Below the pieces are notes generated by a model. The model did not search any database and had not been told where the DNA came from. It saw only the letters and a program-made list of their open reading frames with translations. DNA of 13,657 bases from Spirochaetaceae bacterium (GTDB taxonomy: Bacteria > Spirochaetota > Spirochaetia > Treponematales > Treponemataceae). The stretch spans positions 1-13,657 of the forward strand of contig JAFNZQ010000142.1 in the NCBI GenBank assembly GCA_017382775.1. Direction: 5' to 3'. The position numbers and the translations under genes were made by a program. Of this stretch, positions 1-13,657 are shown one piece after another; position 1 is the stretch's first letter, and the number at the start of each line of letters is the position of its first letter.

Positions 1-3000
1 AATGGGGGCACCAACTCCACCGCCGCCACCACCGCCGCCACCGGGTGTTCCTTCACGGTCATCTTCGCGTATAATATTGTTACCGCCACCGCCCATTCCA
101 CCATGGATGGGCAAGCCTTCGTGAACCGTCAACTCAAGGGATACGGCATCGGCAATCAAAATTTCCCCCGCGGGATATCCGTCATGACCGGCAGCACCTG
201 ACAGGCCTCCAAGACCACCATGGCTTCCGATGGCGGCTCCGGACCCCGGCGTACCCCATGCTCCCAATGTACGCAATTTTGCCGGAACCTCCTTACCCTC
301 ACGTCCGTTCGGGAAATCAATAAACTTATCATCTCCGCCGTGCCTGGAGGTATGGTCATTTTTACCGTTATTTTTCCCATCATCGCCGCTGTAACTACCG
401 TCGTGCGTCTTTCCCAGAATAAAACCATCCTCCGGAAGCCATAGGAGACAAAGATCCTCATAGGTTATTTCAGGCACATCTCCATCTTTGACGCCTGCAT
501 AATCGGGGCCAATGGTAACTGAAACTTTCTCGTCCTCAGATGTTTTAGTACCACCCCAATTATTTTTTTCATCAGTGGGATCTTCCGTATAAGTACCCTC
601 ATTTTTAAATCTGTTGGCGGATCTTTGATAAAGTTTCACCGGTTGATTCTCCGGCCTATCAAACTCACCTTCAGCAATCGCTTCGAATACAACATCACCC
701 GTTGATGTTAATTGTGTCTTAACATATATATCACCCTTCTCGGGGTCTCGCCTAGTGGCGTCTCGCACAAAGACATAGGATGAATCGGTAGGCTTTAGAT
801 AGCTGCCTAATTTACCATCATTGTCAAGGAGTTTCGTAGCTCGCAACCAGGCTTCATAGATTGAAACATTTCCGTCATAGCGATCGTTATGAGTCGGACC
901 GTAAACATCAGCACCAACATATTTTGCGTCTTTGACAATATAGTCATCGTAGTCGAACCAATTATAGCCAAAACGGTACATATGAGCGGGATCGGTGTAT
1001 CCACCTTCCGCAACGAGTGTTCCGCCGCCATAAATTTCCAATCGAGTACCGACGGGCACATGAATACCTGCGCGACCACTCAAAGAACCATAGGATTTTC
1101 CCGCCTTTGCCGTTAAGGTTGCTCCTTTTTCAATGAACAGGCGCAAAACAGTCGTTGCAGTTCCGCCAATTAATTCCGCTGCTGTTTTATCATTTTCATT
1201 TGCCTTTTCGGGAACCAAACTTATTGCGCTACGGTTGTCAACTTGGTCTATCGTTATATCTTTAAAAATTCCGTAGGTATGCACACCGGCTTTAAGTTCC
1301 CGCAACCGTGAGGTTGCCGTTAAGTTATCCTCAAGAATTATTCCTTCAAAGTTCCATGCCGGATACAAGGTCAACACATTATCATCCGTGGAGCATTTTA
1401 CCTTCATGTTTTCGCAGGGTACAAGACTTGCTCCCGTGGGGAAACCATCTTTACCGATTACGATTTCACCTGTTCCGTCGGCAGGACCATTGGTGGAGTA
1501 CTTAACGTCATAATATTTATTACCCAACTTATTTTGAGAACTGACGGTGTTTTTTACGTCGTACAGACCCACACACCTAAATGTGGGGCGATAGGGCACC
1601 GGCCAGTCAACCACGGGGGGCATAACTCCTGCCATACAGGTGCCTGCTATACCGTTGCTTTTACTGGTAAAATATGCCTCATTGGTTGAGGGCAAATTCT
1701 TCACGTCAAAACCAAAGTCAACCTTCACCGAAATTCGTTTTTGCTCCCAAAGGCCTATTACCTCAAAGTTATCAATCTCATCGGACACACGGCCGCTTAT
1801 GGGTTGGCCGTATCGATCATGGGTTTGGGTTTTAATATCGGAAGGATCCTTGAAATATCCCGCAAACTGGTAATTCTTGAAAGCTGTCACCAAATTATCG
1901 GGTATCTGCGGTAACGATACTCTGGCATATGGCGAATCAAACTTTGTTTCCGCAGTGGTAACCGTACCCTGGGCAAATTCTCGAGCGGCGGAAATGTACT
2001 CCTCCGAGGTTATACCCATTGGTTGTCCGTTTCGCACTGTCATTAGAACAGAAACCGGCTCGTACTGGGCATAGAACGTCATTTCCGTGCCAAAATATGC
2101 GGGGGCAAAGGGTTCATCGGGGTTAATAATCTGACCGTCGGAGGAATAATAACAATTCCCTCCCTCGTAGGCGTCAAAAAAGCCCATATACATCATTCCC
2201 TTTGCGTGGGAATTCAATTCAGATACAGAGATCGGCAATGCCGGCAATGGTCGCCCATAGGCATGAGCCACCTTTGTAATGCCCGCCTTTGTGGAGAATA
2301 ATAAGGATATTTTAACAGCATCCCATACCACATCAACGGAAATGGTTCCGTCGGCAACCAGTTGATCTTCAAGTATGCTGAAACGATAAACCAATTCACC
2401 CACTCGCTCCGTGGGTACTTCAAACAGCACCTTATCGCCATCCTTGTAATTGACAATTACGGATTTTATAACATATCCTGTGTTAGGTGCGGCCACCATC
2501 TTGAAATTGGTGAGGCTATCACCGTCTCGTGTCACACTGACAACGCCCCACTTCTCAATTTGGTCCGCGGGGGGGGCAACGGAACCGGTAGTTCCGTCGG
2601 TACTGGGGCCTAAATAGTCCACATTCACGTTAAAATCCCGTGTCTCAAAATCGGCCATAATAAGAATGGTTTCAGCGGGCATCTTAAAGATGAAACCGCG
2701 AATGTCATCAAAGGTTATCAAGGAAACCCGTCCACTGCTCATTCCCATATATCGCAGGGTATTTTCGGAATACTGGTGAGTTTCATCGGAACGAACGGAA
2801 ACGAGAACCTCTTCACCGGGAAGGGCTGAGGCCACTTCGATTCCGCCCACTGTCAGTGTGATGCTTCCAAATTCAAGCTGACTGATGGTCATGCGATATG
2901 CATCTTTTGATGTTAATTTGGTCACATATTTTTCCCACACCAAGGCTCGTCGATATGAGGCAAGGCCTTCCGTTTCCACCACAATTGAAATTAGGCTGCT

Positions 3001-3933
3001 TCCGAAGGCATCGTCCGCAATGTAACTCTGGGACGGCATTGTTGCGGCAAGGTTTACTTCCACCAGGCCACTTTCCAAGAATGCACCGGTACCGATGGTT
3101 TCAAGAGATGCGGGCAATGTCAATGTTTCAATGTTGTTTCCGCGGAATGAATAATCGCCAATACTTTTCAGTGTGGGCGGTAAAACCACGGATGTGATGT
3201 TTTTGTTGGAAAAAACACTGTTTCCGATTCCACGTACTTCCATACCGTCAATACAGGAAGGAATGAACAATTCTCCGCCTTTGTAATCGGAAGAAACGGC
3301 GGTGATTACACCTTCGGAATTTATTGTAAAATAGCGAGGCAATGAGACTACCGTAATGCTGGTCTGTGCTCCCTCGCTGCTGGTCAAAACAACTTTTGTG
3401 CTTCCGCTTTTGCGTCCAAAGGAACCGCCAAGGGTAAGACCGAGAAAGTTGCGAGCCAAGGGGCGTCCTGCAACCTCACCGAGATCCACAATGGAAATGT
3501 CCTCTGAATGCCACTCCAAAGAGTAGGAATCGGAATTTGACTTAATCGTGGGTTCGTAAATCATATCTCCCTGGAAATAGATGATCTCTTCCGTTTCGAT
3601 TTGTGTCTCATACATTTTAGTGAATTGAGCTGAAAGAAAAACATCTCCGGCAGGCATGGTAAAATAACCTTTCCGTATGGGAACCGTTCGTTTTCCCATA
3701 GTGTAGTTCAACGAATTTTCCACCACCGTGTAGCCCACGTCGGGAATTACCTGCACGTCTACGTTGCTACCCACGGCGAACATATTTGCTGAAACTTTAA
3801 TTCGTCCTCCCACAATGGACGAATCCACCGAAACTTTGTGTTCATCCAGGGTCACAAAATTGCTACCGCAGGACACAAAAGCAACGAATGTCAGCAACAA
3901 CGATACTTTTAAATACAACTTTTGAAGCCTCAT
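1..3933 (-). CDS. Large BspA-like LRR surface lipoprotein, C-terminus beyond the window
   Basis: The frame is open without a stop over 1311 codons and continues past the left edge, so the true length is unknown. It starts at ATG 3933, six nt after AGGAGG (3945-3940). The N-terminus is a lipoprotein signal: basic residues, a hydrophobic core and the lipobox FVSC with Cys22, so the mature protein is probably lipid-anchored in an outer or cytoplasmic membrane. Residues about 202-340 form a BspA/LRR_5-type leucine-rich block (for example SIGDYSF, TIGTGAF). Three InlB-B/Listeria-Bacteroides-like repeats follow at about 580-627, 680-735 and 785-862, each of the type GYF or GLY followed by an aromatic end such as YAQYEP, GLWEQ or YPAW. 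Residues about 1228-1311 are very rich in glycine, with a run of nine Gly. Family knowledge suggests adhesion or host-matrix contact; this is inference. It is a single gene with its own promoter. Confidence 0.88.
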   Translation of the reverse strand, partial: MRLQKLYLKVSLLLTFVAFVSCGSNFVTLDEHKVSVDSSIVGGRIKVSANMFAVGSNVDVQVIPDVGYTVVENSLNYTMGKRTVPIRKGYFTMPAGDVFLSAQFTKMYETQIETEEIIYFQGDMIYEPTIKSNSDSYSLEWHSEDISIVDLGEVAGRPLARNFLGLTLGGSFGRKSGSTKVVLTSSEGAQTSITVVSLPRYFTINSEGVITAVSSDYKGGELFIPSCIDGMEVRGIGNSVFSNKNITSVVLPPTLKSIGDYSFRGNNIETLTLPASLETIGTGAFLESGLVEVNLAATMPSQSYIADDAFGSSLISIVVETEGLASYRRALVWEKYVTKLTSKDAYRMTISQLEFGSITLTVGGIEVASALPGEEVLVSVRSDETHQYSENTLRYMGMSSGRVSLITFDDIRGFIFKMPAETILIMADFETRDFNVNVDYLGPSTDGTTGSVAPPADQIEKWGVVSVTRDGDSLTNFKMVAAPNTGYVIKSVIVNYKDGDKVLFEVPTERVGELVYRFSILEDQLVADGTISVDVVWDAVKISLLFSTKAGITKVAHAYGRPLPALPISVSELNSHAKGMMYMGFFDAYEGGNCYYSSDGQIINPDEPFAPAYFGTEMTFYAQYEPVSVLMTVRNGQPMGITSEEYISAAREFAQGTVTTAETKFDSPYARVSLPQIPDNLVTAFKNYQFAGYFKDPSDIKTQTHDRYGQPISGRVSDEIDNFEVIGLWEQKRISVKVDFGFDVKNLPSTNEAYFTSKSNGIAGTCMAGVMPPVVDWPVPYRPTFRCVGLYDVKNTVSSQNKLGNKYYDVKYSTNGPADGTGEIVIGKDGFPTGASLVPCENMKVKCSTDDNVLTLYPAWNFEGIILEDNLTATSRLRELKAGVHTYGIFKDITIDQVDNRSAISLVPEKANENDKTAAELIGGTATTVLRLFIEKGATLTAKAGKSYGSLSGRAGIHVPVGTRLEIYGGGTLVAEGGYTDPAHMYRFGYNWFDYDDYIVKDAKYVGADVYGPTHNDRYDGNVSIYEAWLRATKLLDNDGKLGSYLKPTDSSYVFVRDATRRDPEKGDIYVKTQLTSTGDVVFEAIAEGEFDRPENQPVKLYQRSANRFKNEGTYTEDPTDEKNNWGGTKTSEDEKVSVTIGPDYAGVKDGDVPEITYEDLCLLWLPEDGFILGKTHDGSYSGDDGKNNGKNDHTSRHGGDDKFIDFPNGREGKEVPAKLRTLGAWGTPGSGAAIGSHGGLGGLSGAAGHDGYPAGEILIADAVSLELTVHEGLPIHGGMGGGGNNIIREDDREGTPGGGGGGGGGVGAPI
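16..42 (-). repeat. Glycine tract, nine GGN codons in a row
   Basis: On the minus strand nine consecutive codons (mainly GGC and GGT) encode poly-glycine within the lipoprotein. A second cluster, HGGMGGGG, lies just before it in the protein (about 79-105). The trinucleotide repeat could vary in copy number by slippage without shifting the frame. It probably acts as a flexible linker or a Gly-rich low-complexity surface segment. Confidence 0.7.
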
Positions 3934-4065
3934 AATGGCCCTCCTTGTTCCACTTAACAAAATTGGAATACTTTTTTCTCAACTTTCTCTTTTTTTTACT
4001 TTATGTCTATTTTTTACTTTCTTTCGAGTTAAAACCGATTTTACCCGGTTCAAACCCTTTGTCAT
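3934..4065 (-). promoter_or_regulatory. 5' leader of the LRR lipoprotein mRNA
   Basis: The predicted transcript starts near 4059, giving an untranslated leader of about 126 nt, far longer than the other leaders in this window. It holds a strong ribosome binding site, AAGGAGGG (3946-3939), before the ATG at 3933. A small stem with arms 4050-4046 and 4037-4033 (AACCG/CGGTT, 8-nt loop) lies about 10 nt from the predicted start point and could stabilise the mRNA. The stem is short, so this is weak. The rest is purine-rich on the mRNA strand and shows no known riboswitch that I can recognise. Confidence 0.4.
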
Positions 4066-4213: not shown

Positions 4214-5047
4214 TCATCGGCGGAAAGGATTTTTTTTCACCCCTAAAACCGCAAAAAGCACAATTAGGAAAACGCATACAATGGTGGGTCCCACCGGGGA
4301 TGAGGCGCCAATGGATATCAACAGTCCCGACAGGGTTCCAAACACCCCAATTAGGGCGGAAACCACCGTTACGCTTTTAAACCGTCGGCAAACCTGCATT
4401 GCACAGAAACCGGGAAACACAATCAAGGCACATACCAAAAGGGAACCCACCAAGGTCATGGCCAAAACAATGACCACCGCCACCACAGATGCGATTATCA
4501 TCTTCCAAAGACCGGCATTTATCCCGGAACTTTGGGCAAAATCAAAGTCGAAGGACACGGTAAAAATCCGGTGATAGCCGAAAATGAAAATCAAAACCGC
4601 CGTGAGGGAAACACAGGCACACAAAATTATTTCCCGAGACGAAAGGGTCAGAATGGCGGTTGTGCCAAAAAGCATATTGCAAACATCTCCGGAAATATTT
4701 GATGATGGGGAAAAAATGCTTAAAACCAAGTAACCTATTCCCAACATTCCCACGGAAATCATTGCGATCGCCACGTCGCCACCGATTTTTTTACCGAAAT
4801 TCAGCAGCAAAATGGCGGAAATCACCATAACCGGTATCACCACGGTCATGGGAGCAACAATTTTCAGCACACCGGCAATGGCAAAAACGCCAAAGGCTAA
4901 ATGGGAAAGTCCGTCGCCTATGAATGAAAATCGTTGCAAAATCAATGTGGTGCCGAAAAGGGATGAACACAGGGCAATGAGGGCGCCCACAATAAGGGCA
5001 TTTTGCACAAAGGGAAAGGCGGAAAATTCCAGTATTTTTTCAATCAT
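4214..5047 (-). CDS. znuB: Zinc/manganese-type ABC transporter permease, ABC-3 family (ZnuB)
   Basis: This 277-residue, strongly hydrophobic protein has many membrane segments along its length and fits the ABC-3 permease family (ZnuB/TroC/MntB), whose members are about 260-290 residues. The family motif GDGLSHLAFG is near residues 44-53. It forms the membrane channel that takes metal from the ZnuA lipoprotein, driven by ZnuC. The start at ATG 5047 overlaps the znuC stop as ATGA and follows GGAGG at a 5-nt distance, so translation is coupled. It is the last gene of the operon. Which metal is moved (Zn, Mn or Fe) cannot be read from this subunit. Confidence 0.92.
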   Translation of the reverse strand: MIEKILEFSAFPFVQNALIVGALIALCSSLFGTTLILQRFSFIGDGLSHLAFGVFAIAGVLKIVAPMTVVIPVMVISAILLLNFGKKIGGDVAIAMISVGMLGIGYLVLSIFSPSSNISGDVCNMLFGTTAILTLSSREIILCACVSLTAVLIFIFGYHRIFTVSFDFDFAQSSGINAGLWKMIIASVVAVVIVLAMTLVGSLLVCALIVFPGFCAMQVCRRFKSVTVVSALIGVFGTLSGLLISIGASSPVGPTIVCVFLIVLFAVLGVKKNPFRR

Positions 5048-5706
5048 TTTAGCCTCCGAAAGCCCGCCACGGTACCGAAAAAGTTTTTCTCACCGATGGA
5101 AAGAACGGTTTTTCCAATTTCCGAAAATGCCGAAAAATCGTGGGTTACCACAATAACGGAAAGACCGCCTTCATTCAGTTTTCCCAAAAGCAATGGGATT
5201 TTATCCATGGATTCTTTGTCCAAGGCGGCATCCGGCTCGTCGAGAATCAGCAATTTTTTGGCGGCGCAAAGCGCTCTGGCCAACAGGACTCGTCTTTGTT
5301 GTCCGCCGGAAAGAGCGGAAAAGTTTTTTCTGCGAATATCGGCCACGGAAAGTTTTTCCATTGCATCCTCAGCCACAGCACGGTGCTTTCCGGTGAAAAA
5401 AGGGAATGCGGAAGGTGTACATCCGGACATTATCACTTCCCCAACGGAGGCCGGAAAATATTCGGCGGATGCAACCTGTTGGGGGAGATAACCGATTTGT
5501 CCCTTTAATGAGGAATCAACACGAAGAGTTCCCGAAGAAATGGGATGTAGCCCCAAAATGGCTCTGAGCAAGGTGGTTTTACCGCAACCGTTGGCACCGC
5601 AAATCACCAAAAAATCACCGGGAAAAACCTTGAAATTCAAGTCCTTTACAGTGAGATTTGCCGAATGTTTTATCACCAAATTTTCGCATTCGATTAAAGC
5701 CTTCAT
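5044..5706 (-). CDS. znuC: Zinc/manganese-type ABC transporter ATPase (ZnuC)
   Basis: A 220-residue ABC ATPase. Walker A is GANGCGKTT (residues 37-45), with Cys instead of the usual Ala/Ser before GKT. The Q-loop is YLPQQ, the signature LSGGQQRRVLLARAL, Walker B with the catalytic Glu LLILDEPDAALD, and the H-loop VTHDF, so the motif set is complete. It powers metal import through ZnuB. I chose ATG 5706 rather than an upstream in-frame start at 5784 because 5706 overlaps the znuA stop as ATGA, follows GGAAGG at 6 nt, and gives the family's usual N-terminus; the longer form would add 26 unconserved residues read inside znuA. It ends in another ATGA overlap with znuB. Confidence 0.93.
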   Translation of the reverse strand: MKALIECENLVIKHSANLTVKDLNFKVFPGDFLVICGANGCGKTTLLRAILGLHPISSGTLRVDSSLKGQIGYLPQQVASAEYFPASVGEVIMSGCTPSAFPFFTGKHRAVAEDAMEKLSVADIRRKNFSALSGGQQRRVLLARALCAAKKLLILDEPDAALDKESMDKIPLLLGKLNEGGLSVIVVTHDFSAFSEIGKTVLSIGEKNFFGTVAGFRRLK

Positions 5707-6617
5707 CGCAAACCTTCCCGTAACACGGAAATGTTTTCCGCCATGGTTTTCAAATAGGATTTTCCCGAATTGATTTCCTCCCAAGAAACGATTTGCATGG
5801 AATCCAATTCGACGACGGAAATGTCCTTTCGGTCAATTAACTCCATTAGAGAGGTTGCGATTTTCTTATCGGAATTTTCCGAAACGAAAATTGTTTTTAC
5901 ATCAAACTGTTGGATTTTTTCTCCCAAGAAAACCAGTTGATTGAAGGATGCGGCGCTTTCCGTTCCGCAGGAAGAAAAGGCGGCAAAGCATTCTATGTCA
6001 TTGGAAGTAAAAATTTCGTCATGGAAGAAAGGACCGAAAGGAAAACGGTCGGCGAAAATAACCTTTTTTCCATTGTTTTCCGAGGCAATGGCGGAAAGTT
6101 CCCTTTCCAATGTCCATATTTCTTCAATGTACCGACGGCAATTTTCCGTAAATCGGGCCTTTTCTTCGGGAAAAACTTCAATGAGTTTGTCACGAATTTT
6201 TTCGCAGGAAGAAGTTGCATCCCGCAGAGAGAGCCAAATGTGTTCATCCTCATCGGAATTGGAAGAAAGTTTCAACATCGATTTTGGTTGCATGGATTGG
6301 GGCAATTCATCTGTCCAATGTTCGCTGATACCACCCACTGTTACCAGAAGATCGCTTTGGGAAACGGTAACAAAGGTTTCGGCAGTGGCGAAAAAATTAT
6401 GCATATCAACGCCGGCGAAAAGCAAAATAGGCGTTATATCACTGTTATTGCCCAAAATGTTTCGCACCCAATCGTAAACGGAAAATGTTGTGCACAAAAC
6501 GGTTTTCTTGTTGTCCTCGCTTTGTGTGGGAACTTTTTTTTGACAAGACAAAGGCAGCATCAAAATCACAGTGAGAAAAAAAATTTTTGCAACCATGAAA
6601 CCGGAGACTTTTTTCAC
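5703..6617 (-). CDS. znuA: Metal-binding ABC transporter lipoprotein (ZnuA/TroA family)
   Basis: A 304-residue cluster A-I solute-binding lipoprotein. The signal peptide ends in lipobox LPLSC with Cys25. Probable metal ligands are His73 (GVDMHN, matching GxDPHxY of the family) and His126 (DEHIWLS, matching DPHxWL). At the third ligand site the usual HxAFxY is replaced by ADRFPFGPF, putting Asp190 where His is expected. The stretch AAFSSCGTESAASF fits the C-terminal lobe of Gram-positive and spirochete relatives. There is no His-rich loop. It delivers Zn or Mn to ZnuB/ZnuC, encoded directly downstream with ATGA overlaps. The start is GTG 6617, exactly at the predicted transcription start. ATG 6596 (residue 8) is an alternative, but has no Shine-Dalgarno and still leaves a usable signal peptide. 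Confidence 0.88.
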   Translation of the reverse strand: MKKVSGFMVAKIFFLTVILMLPLSCQKKVPTQSEDNKKTVLCTTFSVYDWVRNILGNNSDITPILLFAGVDMHNFFATAETFVTVSQSDLLVTVGGISEHWTDELPQSMQPKSMLKLSSNSDEDEHIWLSLRDATSSCEKIRDKLIEVFPEEKARFTENCRRYIEEIWTLERELSAIASENNGKKVIFADRFPFGPFFHDEIFTSNDIECFAAFSSCGTESAASFNQLVFLGEKIQQFDVKTIFVSENSDKKIATSLMELIDRKDISVVELDSMQIVSWEEINSGKSYLKTMAENISVLREGLR

Positions 6618-9524: not shown

Positions 9525-10919
9525 ATGGTAGTGCTTATAAAAGATATTTTAACCTCAAATCCGGACGGAAGACCGGTTGATGTTTACGGATGGGTGCGTA
9601 CAAAACGAGATGCAAAAAATTTGGCCTTTATTCAAGTGAACGACGGTTCATGTTTTGCGTCCTTGCAGCTGACTTTTGACAGAGAAACTTCGAATAATGT
9701 TGAAGCAATCGACAAGGTGTTGCAAAAAGTATCCACCGGAGCCTCAATTCACGCCAAAGGAAATTTAATTCCCTCTCCGGCGTCCGGACAGGCTGTGGAA
9801 GTATCTTTGACAGAATTGGAACTCATTGGCGAATCTCCGTCGGATTATCCCTTGCAGAAAAAGCATCATACTGTGGAATTTTTGCGGGAAATCGGACATC
9901 TTCGACCTCGTACCAACCTTTTCGGTGCTGTGGCCAGAATGCGTAGTGAAATGGCCTTTGCCGTCCACAATTTTTTCCACGAAAACGGATTTTTCTATGT
10001 TCACACTCCCATAATCACATCCAGTGACTGCGAAGGTGCCGGGGAAATGTTCCAAGTGACCACTTTGGACATTGAAGCATTGGCAAAAAAGGGTGAGCAA
10101 CCCAATTATTCCAAGGATTTTTTCGGAAAAAAGACCAATCTGACGGTTTCGGGACAATTGGAAGCCGAAACCTATGCCACTGCCCTTTCCAGGGTTTATA
10201 CCTTTGGCCCCACATTCCGTGCGGAAAACTCCAACACGCCTCGCCACCTTGCGGAATTTTGGATGATTGAGCCGGAAATGGCCTTTTACACCTTGAACGA
10301 AAACATGGATTTGGCGGAAAGTTTCATCAAATATCTGCTTAATTGGGCACTAAAAAACTGTAGCGAAGATATGAAATTCTTTGACGACAGGGTACAAAAA
10401 GGCATTATCTCCACATTGGAAGGCGTGTATTCCGCAAACTTTGAACGAATGCCTTACACCGAAGCCATTGTCGCATTGGAAAAATCCGGCGAAAATTTTG
10501 AGTACAAACCATTTTGGGGTTGCGACTTACAAACGGAACACGAAAGGTTTTTAACGGAAAAATTACTGAAAAAACCGGTAATCATCACCGACTATCCTGC
10601 CGAAATTAAGGCGTTCTATATGAAACAAAATCCCGATGGCAAAACGGTGCGTGCCATGGATGTTTTGGTTCCCGGAATTGGGGAAATCATCGGTGGGTCA
10701 CAAAGGGAAGATGATTTGCAAAAATTAACTTCCAGAATGTTGGAATTAAAGTTGAATCCGGAAGACTATTGGTGGTATCTTGATTTGAGAAAATACGGTA
10801 GCGTTCCCCATTCCGGCTTTGGATTGGGTTTTGAACGAATGTTGCGATATGTTACGGGAGTGGCGAATTTGCGTGATGTAATTCCCTTCCCCCGAGCACC
10901 CAAACTTGCCGATTTTTAG
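9525..10919 (+). CDS. asnS: Asparaginyl-tRNA synthetase
   Basis: A 464-residue class IIb tRNA synthetase that joins asparagine to tRNA-Asn with ATP. Residues about 1-110 are the OB-fold anticodon-binding domain ([11 protein letters not shown], then AFIQVNDGS). The catalytic core has [13 protein letters not shown], motif 2 around Arg232 ([21 protein letters not shown]) and motif 3 [12 protein letters not shown] with Arg438. FWMIEPEM and the following [12 protein letters not shown] are typical of AsnRS rather than AspRS. Its length fits the family (about 460). The start is ATG 9525, directly after the promoter and without a Shine-Dalgarno. It is followed 8 nt later by the PilZ gene, and no terminator lies between them, so the two are probably cotranscribed. 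Confidence 0.96.
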
Positions 10920-11894: not shown

Positions 11895-12731
11895 TCAGAA
11901 TACTGCCACAACTTCGCCGTTGGGATATTTTGCACCAATAAAGTCTGCAATCACATCCGAACACAAAGCATTAACCAAAGCCTGAATCTTCTCCGAATTT
12001 TCCTGACCTGCTTTTACGGAAATAATATTAACGTAAGGTGAATCCGCAGATTCGATGAGAAGACCGTCTTTGAGGGCATTGAGGCCGGCATCAATGGCGT
12101 AATTTCCGTTGATAACGGCTGCATCCACGTCCTGCAACACACGAGTCAAACTGGCTGCTTCAATTTCGGCAAATTCCAAATTGTGGGGATTGTCCACAAT
12201 GTCATGAACGGTTGCGGTAATTCCGCTTGCCGGATCAAGTGTGATCAAACCGCCACTTTGCAACAACAACAAGGCACGACCACCGTTGGTTGCATCGTTG
12301 GGGATGGCAATTTTGGCACCTGCGGGCAACTCGGATGTGGCTTTGTATTTATTGGAGTAGAGGGCCAAAGGTTCAATGTGGATTCCGCCGGCACTTACCA
12401 AATCCATGGAGTGCTCTGTATTAAAGGTTTCCATGTAGGGCAAGTGTTGGAAAAAGTTAGCATCGATTTCCCCGGAAAAAAGGGCTTCGTTGGGTGTTAC
12501 ATAATCGGTAAATTCGATTATTTCAAGTCGGTAACCCTGAGCGGCAAGTGGTTCAACCACTTGATTCAACATTTCGGCATGAGGTACCGGTGTAGCTCCG
12601 ACGCGTATAACTTTAGATGCAACATCATCACCGGTGGCAGTCTCACCGCCAACTTCTTTTTTTGCACATGAAGGGATCAACAGTGCAAATGCAATCAGTA
12701 AAGCAATGGTGCAAAGTACAGATTTTTTCAT
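11895..12731 (-). CDS. metQ: Methionine ABC transporter lipoprotein MetQ (NlpA/Tp32 family)
   Basis: A 278-residue lipoprotein of the NlpA family, about the usual 265-285. The signal peptide ends in lipobox LIPSC with Cys22. The mature domain begins with IRVGATPVPHAEML and continues with FTDYVTPNEAL, ANFFQHLPYM, IAIPNDATNGGRALLLLQ and the late VINGNYA segment, all typical of methionine-binding MetQ. It binds L-methionine (or a related compound) outside the cytoplasmic membrane and hands it to the MetI/MetN transporter. AAGGAG (12743-12738) overlaps the stop of the upstream gene and lies 6 nt before the ATG, so the gene depends on that transcript. The adjoining MetI is truncated and fused and no metN is present, so the local transporter looks incomplete. 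Confidence 0.93.
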   Translation of the reverse strand: MKKSVLCTIALLIAFALLIPSCAKKEVGGETATGDDVASKVIRVGATPVPHAEMLNQVVEPLAAQGYRLEIIEFTDYVTPNEALFSGEIDANFFQHLPYMETFNTEHSMDLVSAGGIHIEPLALYSNKYKATSELPAGAKIAIPNDATNGGRALLLLQSGGLITLDPASGITATVHDIVDNPHNLEFAEIEAASLTRVLQDVDAAVINGNYAIDAGLNALKDGLLIESADSPYVNIISVKAGQENSEKIQALVNALCSDVIADFIGAKYPNGEVVAVF

Positions 12732-12742
12732 CTTTTTCTCCT

Positions 12743-13486
12743 TTATCTGTTTTTCATTATTCGTTCTGTAATTTTTGTTCCGATGCCCTGAATTAACTCC
12801 ACCAAAACCAAAATAACAATCACGGATACAATCATTACATTTGGAATATTTCGCTGATAACCGTAACGGATTGCCAAATCCCCCAAACCGCCGCCACCAA
12901 TGGCACCGGCCATTGCGGAATATCCGATTAAGTTTATTATGGTTAAAGTTACCCCGGAAACCAAGGAAGGCAAGGCTTCGGGGATTAAAACTTTGAAAAT
13001 AATTTGCATTTTCGTGGAACCCATGGCCTTTGCCGCCAAAATGAGGCCGGAATCAACTTCGTTTAAGGCCGTTTCCACAATACGGGCCACAAAGGGAGCC
13101 GCAGCAATGGACAGGGGAACCAAAGTGGCCGCCGTTCCTATGCTTGTTCCGATAATTATTCGGGACAAGGGAAAGAGCAGGACCATTAAAATAATAAAGG
13201 GAAAGGATCGCAACACGTTTACAATGCGACTTATTATTTGATTCAAAATCGGTTTGGGCGAAATTATGGAATTTTCCCCTGTTACACAAAGGATGATTCC
13301 CAAAGGATATTCTCCATGTTCGATGGCCGAAGCCAAAGGATGAATCATGTCGGGATAGTCGACGCTTTTGTTGCTATAAGTGCCAAAATCTTTGACCATA
13401 TAGCCCGCTTCTTTCAATTTCTCAATCAGAAATTCCTTCATTTCGAAGCCGCCATGGTCGCTTGCTATGGGTATGATGTGTTCCAT
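12743..13486 (-). CDS. In-frame chimera: RpiB N-terminal half fused to truncated MetI permease
   Basis: One open frame of 247 residues joins two unrelated families. Residues 1-67 are the N-terminus of ribose-5-phosphate isomerase B: IPIASDHGGFEMKE, then GTYSNKSVDYPD, ending at the active-site Cys67 in LGIILC. The usual next segment (GSGNG or GTG loop) and all later catalytic residues are missing. From Val68 the sequence is methionine permease MetI: VTGENSI, NVLRSFPFIILMV, IIGTSIG, the EAA loop LAAKAMGSTKMQII and IGYSAMAGAIGGGGLGD. Compared with E. coli MetI about 40 residues including the first membrane helix are lost. The junction (about 13280-13300) falls where both families read GIxLx, suggesting short homology. 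RpiB activity should be lost, and permease function is doubtful. The start ATG 13486 has only a weak GGAA. A deletion or an assembly error could explain it. Confidence 0.85.
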   Translation of the reverse strand: MEHIIPIASDHGGFEMKEFLIEKLKEAGYMVKDFGTYSNKSVDYPDMIHPLASAIEHGEYPLGIILCVTGENSIISPKPILNQIISRIVNVLRSFPFIILMVLLFPLSRIIIGTSIGTAATLVPLSIAAAPFVARIVETALNEVDSGLILAAKAMGSTKMQIIFKVLIPEALPSLVSGVTLTIINLIGYSAMAGAIGGGGLGDLAIRYGYQRNIPNVMIVSVIVILVLVELIQGIGTKITERIMKNR

Positions 13487-13657
13487 TTTTCCGCTGTTGA
13501 TAAACTATGTCGCAAAATTACATATTTTCATCACGCGCCATTGTCATATTGCACTATTTCTGAAAGACTTATCCGCTTAGAAAAAATCAACATTTTTGAA
13601 ATAATAAACTGATAATCAATCAAATAATTAGTTATCAACAAGTATTCTGTTGATAAC
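13487..13657. promoter_or_regulatory. AT-rich region upstream of the rpiB-metI chimera
   Basis: No gene is visible in these 171 bp. A weak promoter candidate for the minus-strand gene is ATGACA (13547-13542), 17 bp, TATGTA (13524-13519); the -10 is poor. TTATCAACA, a DnaA-box variant, occurs three times: 13495-13503 (minus, 9 bp before the ATG), 13632-13640 (plus) and 13648-13656 (minus). The sites may bind DnaA or some other regulator. The sequence stops at the window edge, so the full element is not seen. Confidence 0.4.
13631..13657. repeat. Perfect inverted repeat at the right edge
   Basis: GTTATCAACA (13631-13640) and TGTTGATAAC (13648-13657) are exact reverse complements around a 7-nt centre AGTATTC. 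The window ends on the last base of the repeat, so the stem may be longer. It could be a protein-binding operator, a pair of head-to-head DnaA-box-like sites, or a hairpin. There is no U-run on either visible side. Confidence 0.7.

Follow-up and report, generated by a model that had tools for sequence, protein, structure and literature searches.

An apparent RpiB–MetI fusion in a spirochaete draft genome is very probably a cross-species chimeric contig end

Results

An open reading frame at one end of a Spirochaetaceae contig appears to fuse ribose-5-phosphate isomerase B (RpiB) to the methionine ABC transporter permease MetI. We conclude with high confidence that this apparent fusion is a cross-species chimeric contig end, in which a Bacteroidales end has been joined to a spirochaete-type contig. 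On either side of the seam, the best relatives belong to different taxa (Bacteroidales DNA at 93.8% identity versus a spirochaete-type MetI at 186 of 187 residues), and intact versions of both genes were found elsewhere (the MetI proteins P0002 and P0003, and 80 of 80 rpiB loci), with the hybrid itself known from one contig only. We read the chimera as an ordinary assembly error, and the frame is almost certainly neither a new protein nor the product of a deletion between rpiB and metN.

The contig and its hybrid frame

The window, that is, the whole stretch of DNA analyzed, is a complete contig of 13,657 bases (C72) belonging to a draft genome that comprises 308 contigs with a total of 1.44 Mb and is 81.5% complete and 3.8% contaminated. 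On its minus strand, from an ATG start at 13486 down to 12743, runs an open frame of 247 residues that is RpiB at its N terminus and MetI from approximately residue 61; the plus strand of the same positions carries many stops in the frame read. The single RpiB–MetI frame reported in the preliminary description, which did not state the strand, was confirmed by the open reading frame itself and by two Pfam domains, both with scores far above chance. LacAB_rpiB covers residues 5–74 (72.2 bits, cut-off 24.7) and BPD_transp_1 covers residues 62–229 (83.6 bits, cut-off 26.4). The isomerase domain is incomplete, with only profile positions 1–70 of 138 represented, and RpiB does end at its catalytic cysteine, as had been claimed. 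The features of this end of the contig are listed below.

11895..12731, minus strand: metQ, intact gene for a methionine-binding lipoprotein (Lipoprotein_9, 305.4 bits)
12743..13284, minus strand: 3' portion of metI, spirochaete-type, for the methionine ABC transporter permease; residues 68–247 and the stop codon (BPD_transp_1; P0002, 186/187)
13285..13307, minus strand: seam, the longest stretch that the two source genes would have in common, at most 23 nt, encoding PLGIILC (as judged from the proteins)
13308..13486, minus strand: 5' portion of an rpiB from Bacteroidales, encoding ribose-5-phosphate isomerase B (L037, 66/67 residues; LacAB_rpiB)
13487..13657, minus strand: Bacteroidales DNA upstream of rpiB, reaching the contig end (L037, 159/171 bases, ungapped)
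13631..13657, no strand: inverted repeat at the contig end with 10-base arms and a 7-base loop, part of the Bacteroidales region upstream of rpiB

The RpiB start codon thus lies 171 bases from the contig end, and the RpiB half falls within the last 371 bases. Further inside, the asparaginyl-tRNA synthetase AsnRS (9525–10919) was found whole, at 68–74% identity, in 12 of the 15 same-family genomes searched, the other three giving two partial matches and one distant match. Together with the relatives of the MetI half, these matches place the body of the contig, including the MetI half, MetQ, and AsnRS, in the window's own family, a spirochaete family judging by the source names of close MetI relatives.

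Two further regions on the minus strand were annotated. Positions 1–3960 hold an open-ended frame of 1320 residues that includes a region of BspA-type leucine-rich repeats and a divergent InlB B-repeat domain; it probably encodes a large surface protein truncated where the contig ends. Adjoining genes for a ZnuA-like binding protein, an ABC ATPase, and an ABC-3 permease at 4214–6617 probably form a metal-uptake operon.

The MetI half and its relatives

The matches of relatives to the hybrid frame start at about residue 60. Searches of 23 same-family genomes recovered the MetI half at 68–78% identity in 18 and at 56% in one, with distant permeases only in the remaining four; the source names of some close MetI relatives are Spirochaetaceae, Treponemataceae, and Treponema. 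A complete MetI of 220 residues, P0002 (two sequences, three contigs), shares 186 of the 187 residues that the frame has from residue 61 to its end, and P0003, an intact MetI found on two contigs, is identical to the MetI half at 177 of 187 residues. Both proteins have an ordinary N-terminal stretch where the hybrid has the RpiB piece. The stretch of P0002 that is absent from the hybrid amounts to 33 residues, in agreement with the claim that MetI had lost its N-terminal part. The check proposed in the preliminary description, a search for intact genes in relatives, was partly borne out by these near-identical intact MetI proteins on other contigs.

The surroundings of metI were compared across 24 loci of relatives, taking approximately 1.5 kb on each side, or less at contig ends. 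An ABC ATPase gene, recognized by its motifs, lies directly upstream of metI in 22 of these loci, MetI is complete at its start in 20, and MetQ follows downstream in 19, with all three found together in 16; rpiB is present within the fetched stretch in none of the 24. At the metI of the window, MetQ is present downstream and the upstream side is foreign DNA. When the missing start of metI was sought on other contigs, only distant permeases, at 22–28% identity, were found beside the window itself.

Bacteroidales origin of the RpiB half

Of the 67 RpiB residues in the frame, 66 are identical to those of L037, a locus of the uncultured Bacteroidales bacterium RUG265, and rpiB codons 1–67 are identical at 189 of 201 bases. 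At the DNA level, positions 13287–13657 align with L037 without gaps at 93.8% identity over 371 bases, coding and upstream sequence alike. We retained 80 of 114 confirmed Bacteroidales rpiB loci, with titles naming Bacteroidales, Bacteroidia, Bacteroidetes, Lentimicrobiaceae, and Candidatus Limimorpha, many of them, by title, from ruminant or horse gut samples. In all 80, the reading frame extends beyond the cysteine and spans no fewer than 130 residues counted from the matched start. Within the genus of L037, 70 of 99 genomes match some or all of the Bacteroidales stretch, some of them only in short pieces. The best match is L037 itself at 94%, followed by at least 16 further genomes at 80–84%, and no genome closer than 94% was found among the 99, with six candidate places scored in each. 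The 48 matches to the RpiB piece alone are short RpiBs by construction, as only proteins of similar length were considered, and are not counted as evidence.

The RpiBs of the window's own relatives are at most 42% identical to the RpiB piece among the matches listed. RpiB is present in 6 of the 23 same-family genomes and was not seen in the other 17, at least 5 of which are less than 85% complete.

These results bear directly on the origin proposed in the preliminary description, a deletion within one genome, with one end in rpiB and the other in a downstream metN-metI-metQ operon. Such a deletion needs an rpiB belonging to the organism, and is contradicted by the Bacteroidales origin of the piece, in its coding and upstream DNA. 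No rpiB was seen in the fetched stretches of the 24 metI loci, and 6 of the 23 same-family genomes have an RpiB. It would fit with the draft genome, in which we found no RpiB other than the hybrid and no NIL-domain MetN; however, in a genome that is only 81.5% complete such absences mean little, and they were not used as evidence. With the rpiB half coming from another phylum, the deletion within one genome was rejected as extremely improbable.

The inverted repeat that closes the contig is part of the same Bacteroidales DNA. In 25 of the 80 Bacteroidales loci, identical 10-base arms precede rpiB by 169–181 bases, at a distance of 171 or 172 bases in 21 of the 25, and the palindrome is a conserved element upstream of rpiB in that Bacteroidales genus. 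We take its arms to resemble a variant of the DnaA box.

The seam

At approximately residues 60–68, the codons of the window are TAT CCT TTG GGA ATC ATC CTT TGT GTA. Agreement with P0002 starts at residue 61 and agreement with the RpiB of L037 runs through residue 67, so that the seam lies within residues 61–67, PLGIILC; the switch, previously placed inside LGIILC/VTGENS, is thereby narrowed. The upstream limit is set by a Thr in P0002 versus Tyr60 in the frame and in RpiB, and the downstream limit by Val68 in the frame and in MetI versus a Gly in RpiB. Given these limits, the common stretch can be no longer than 23 nt, and the two source genes would be identical over at most positions 13285–13307.

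Comparison of the 24 metI with the 80 rpiB loci at the seam region gave a longest common stretch of 13 nt in 1,920 pairs, which include 5 metI loci (L020, L026, L027, L029, and L030) that lack a PLGxxxC-type stretch where one is expected. An identity of 21 nt is therefore unusual and would have to be peculiar to this pair of species.

A real horizontal transfer, in which Bacteroidales DNA recombined into metI via a short identical stretch and replaced metN and the start of metI, would be compatible with a frame that is open across the seam. It also gains from the comparison of relatives, as no common stretch of at least 21 nt was found among the 1,920 pairs and a join by overlap is thus not automatic. 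Nevertheless, we consider the transfer very unlikely. The foreign piece makes up exactly the end of the contig, and the family's own DNA does not resume after it. The hybrid is known from one contig, whereas three others are represented by an intact MetI identical at all but one of 187 residues. Recombination across phyla through 23 nt or less would be exceptional, which was counted against the transfer. Little more than a slight chance is likewise left to a single strain that carries a cross-phylum recombinant formed via approximately 20 identical bases and expresses an RpiB–MetI hybrid.

A separate observation concerns P0121, an RpiB-like protein on another contig, of 1,304 bases, which leaves RpiB right after PLGIILC and continues with a different tail. 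The PLGIILC tract may have led to wrong joins in other assemblies too.

Recurrence of the hybrid

A search covering approximately 5.8 billion proteins in 90% clusters found the hybrid once, as P0001, a single sequence on a single contig, which is the window's own. No second protein with both domains occurred among the best 120 of 8000 scored, and among the matches listed for 39 relatives none joined both halves. Recurrence of the fusion in independent genomes, which had been named as the sign of a genuine gene, was thus not seen among those proteins. An exact 36-base pattern of the seam had no matches in viral contigs (viral_contigs), which, with both parents non-viral, is a weak test, and a literature search on an rpiB-metI fusion found no paper.

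The preliminary description had also entertained a new hybrid membrane protein. A functional protein of this kind, with an RpiB head regulating or feeding the methionine transporter, has the open frame alone in its favor; it would have to work with half an isomerase lacking the residues after the cysteine and with a permease lacking its N-terminal stretch, and no second two-domain protein was present among the best 120 of 8000 scored. Known from a single contig, the functional hybrid was rejected, and we assign it a practically negligible probability.

Discussion

The different origins of the two halves and their position at a contig end support an assembly join, which the preliminary description had offered as its fallback. 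A short-read assembler would have walked from the start of the Bacteroidales rpiB into the spirochaete-type metI via short identical DNA, a crossing made possible by the fact that both genes encode PLGIILC at this place. The metN gene and the start of metI would then be absent for no other reason than that the assembler had abandoned the true path upstream. The join probably went through a k-mer-sized overlap: the smallest k-mer of common assemblers is k = 21, which an overlap limited to 23 nt could exceed only slightly. Past the seam, the contig would have run on to end on the palindrome upstream of rpiB; the palindrome may have had a role in this ending, and our guess is that it stopped the assembly. 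Both source organisms presumably come from one metagenome, and under such a course of events no cell would carry the joined rpiB-metI DNA. Against the chimera count a seam that keeps the reading frame and joins the two proteins where their residues are alike, as real recombination could also give, and the common stretch of no more than 13 nt among the relatives.

Measured against its two parent families, the hybrid is like RpiB (PF02502) in its first 67 residues, up to the cysteine, and lacks all residues after it; from residue 61 to 247 it is an ordinary MetI (PF00528), in which the RpiB piece takes the place of the 33 N-terminal residues of the intact protein. P0001 carries both Pfam domain assignments in a protein collection and could therefore pass for a domain fusion.

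The closest known counterparts are the chimeric contigs that mix species in metagenome assembly with de Bruijn graphs. Assembly graphs linked by common k-mers can give chimeric contigs that mix genomes, as described in a review of metagenome assembly in a passage chiefly about closely related species (PMC7299287). The window resembles such contigs in that two taxa are joined at a contig end, the draft is fragmented, and intact genes exist elsewhere, with a short common stretch possible at the seam. It differs from them in that the seam lies in frame within two coding sequences of different phyla, which is why the join looks like a gene fusion. A chance match about one k-mer long between unrelated genes may thus be enough for a draft genome to display a persuasive in-frame "fusion protein".
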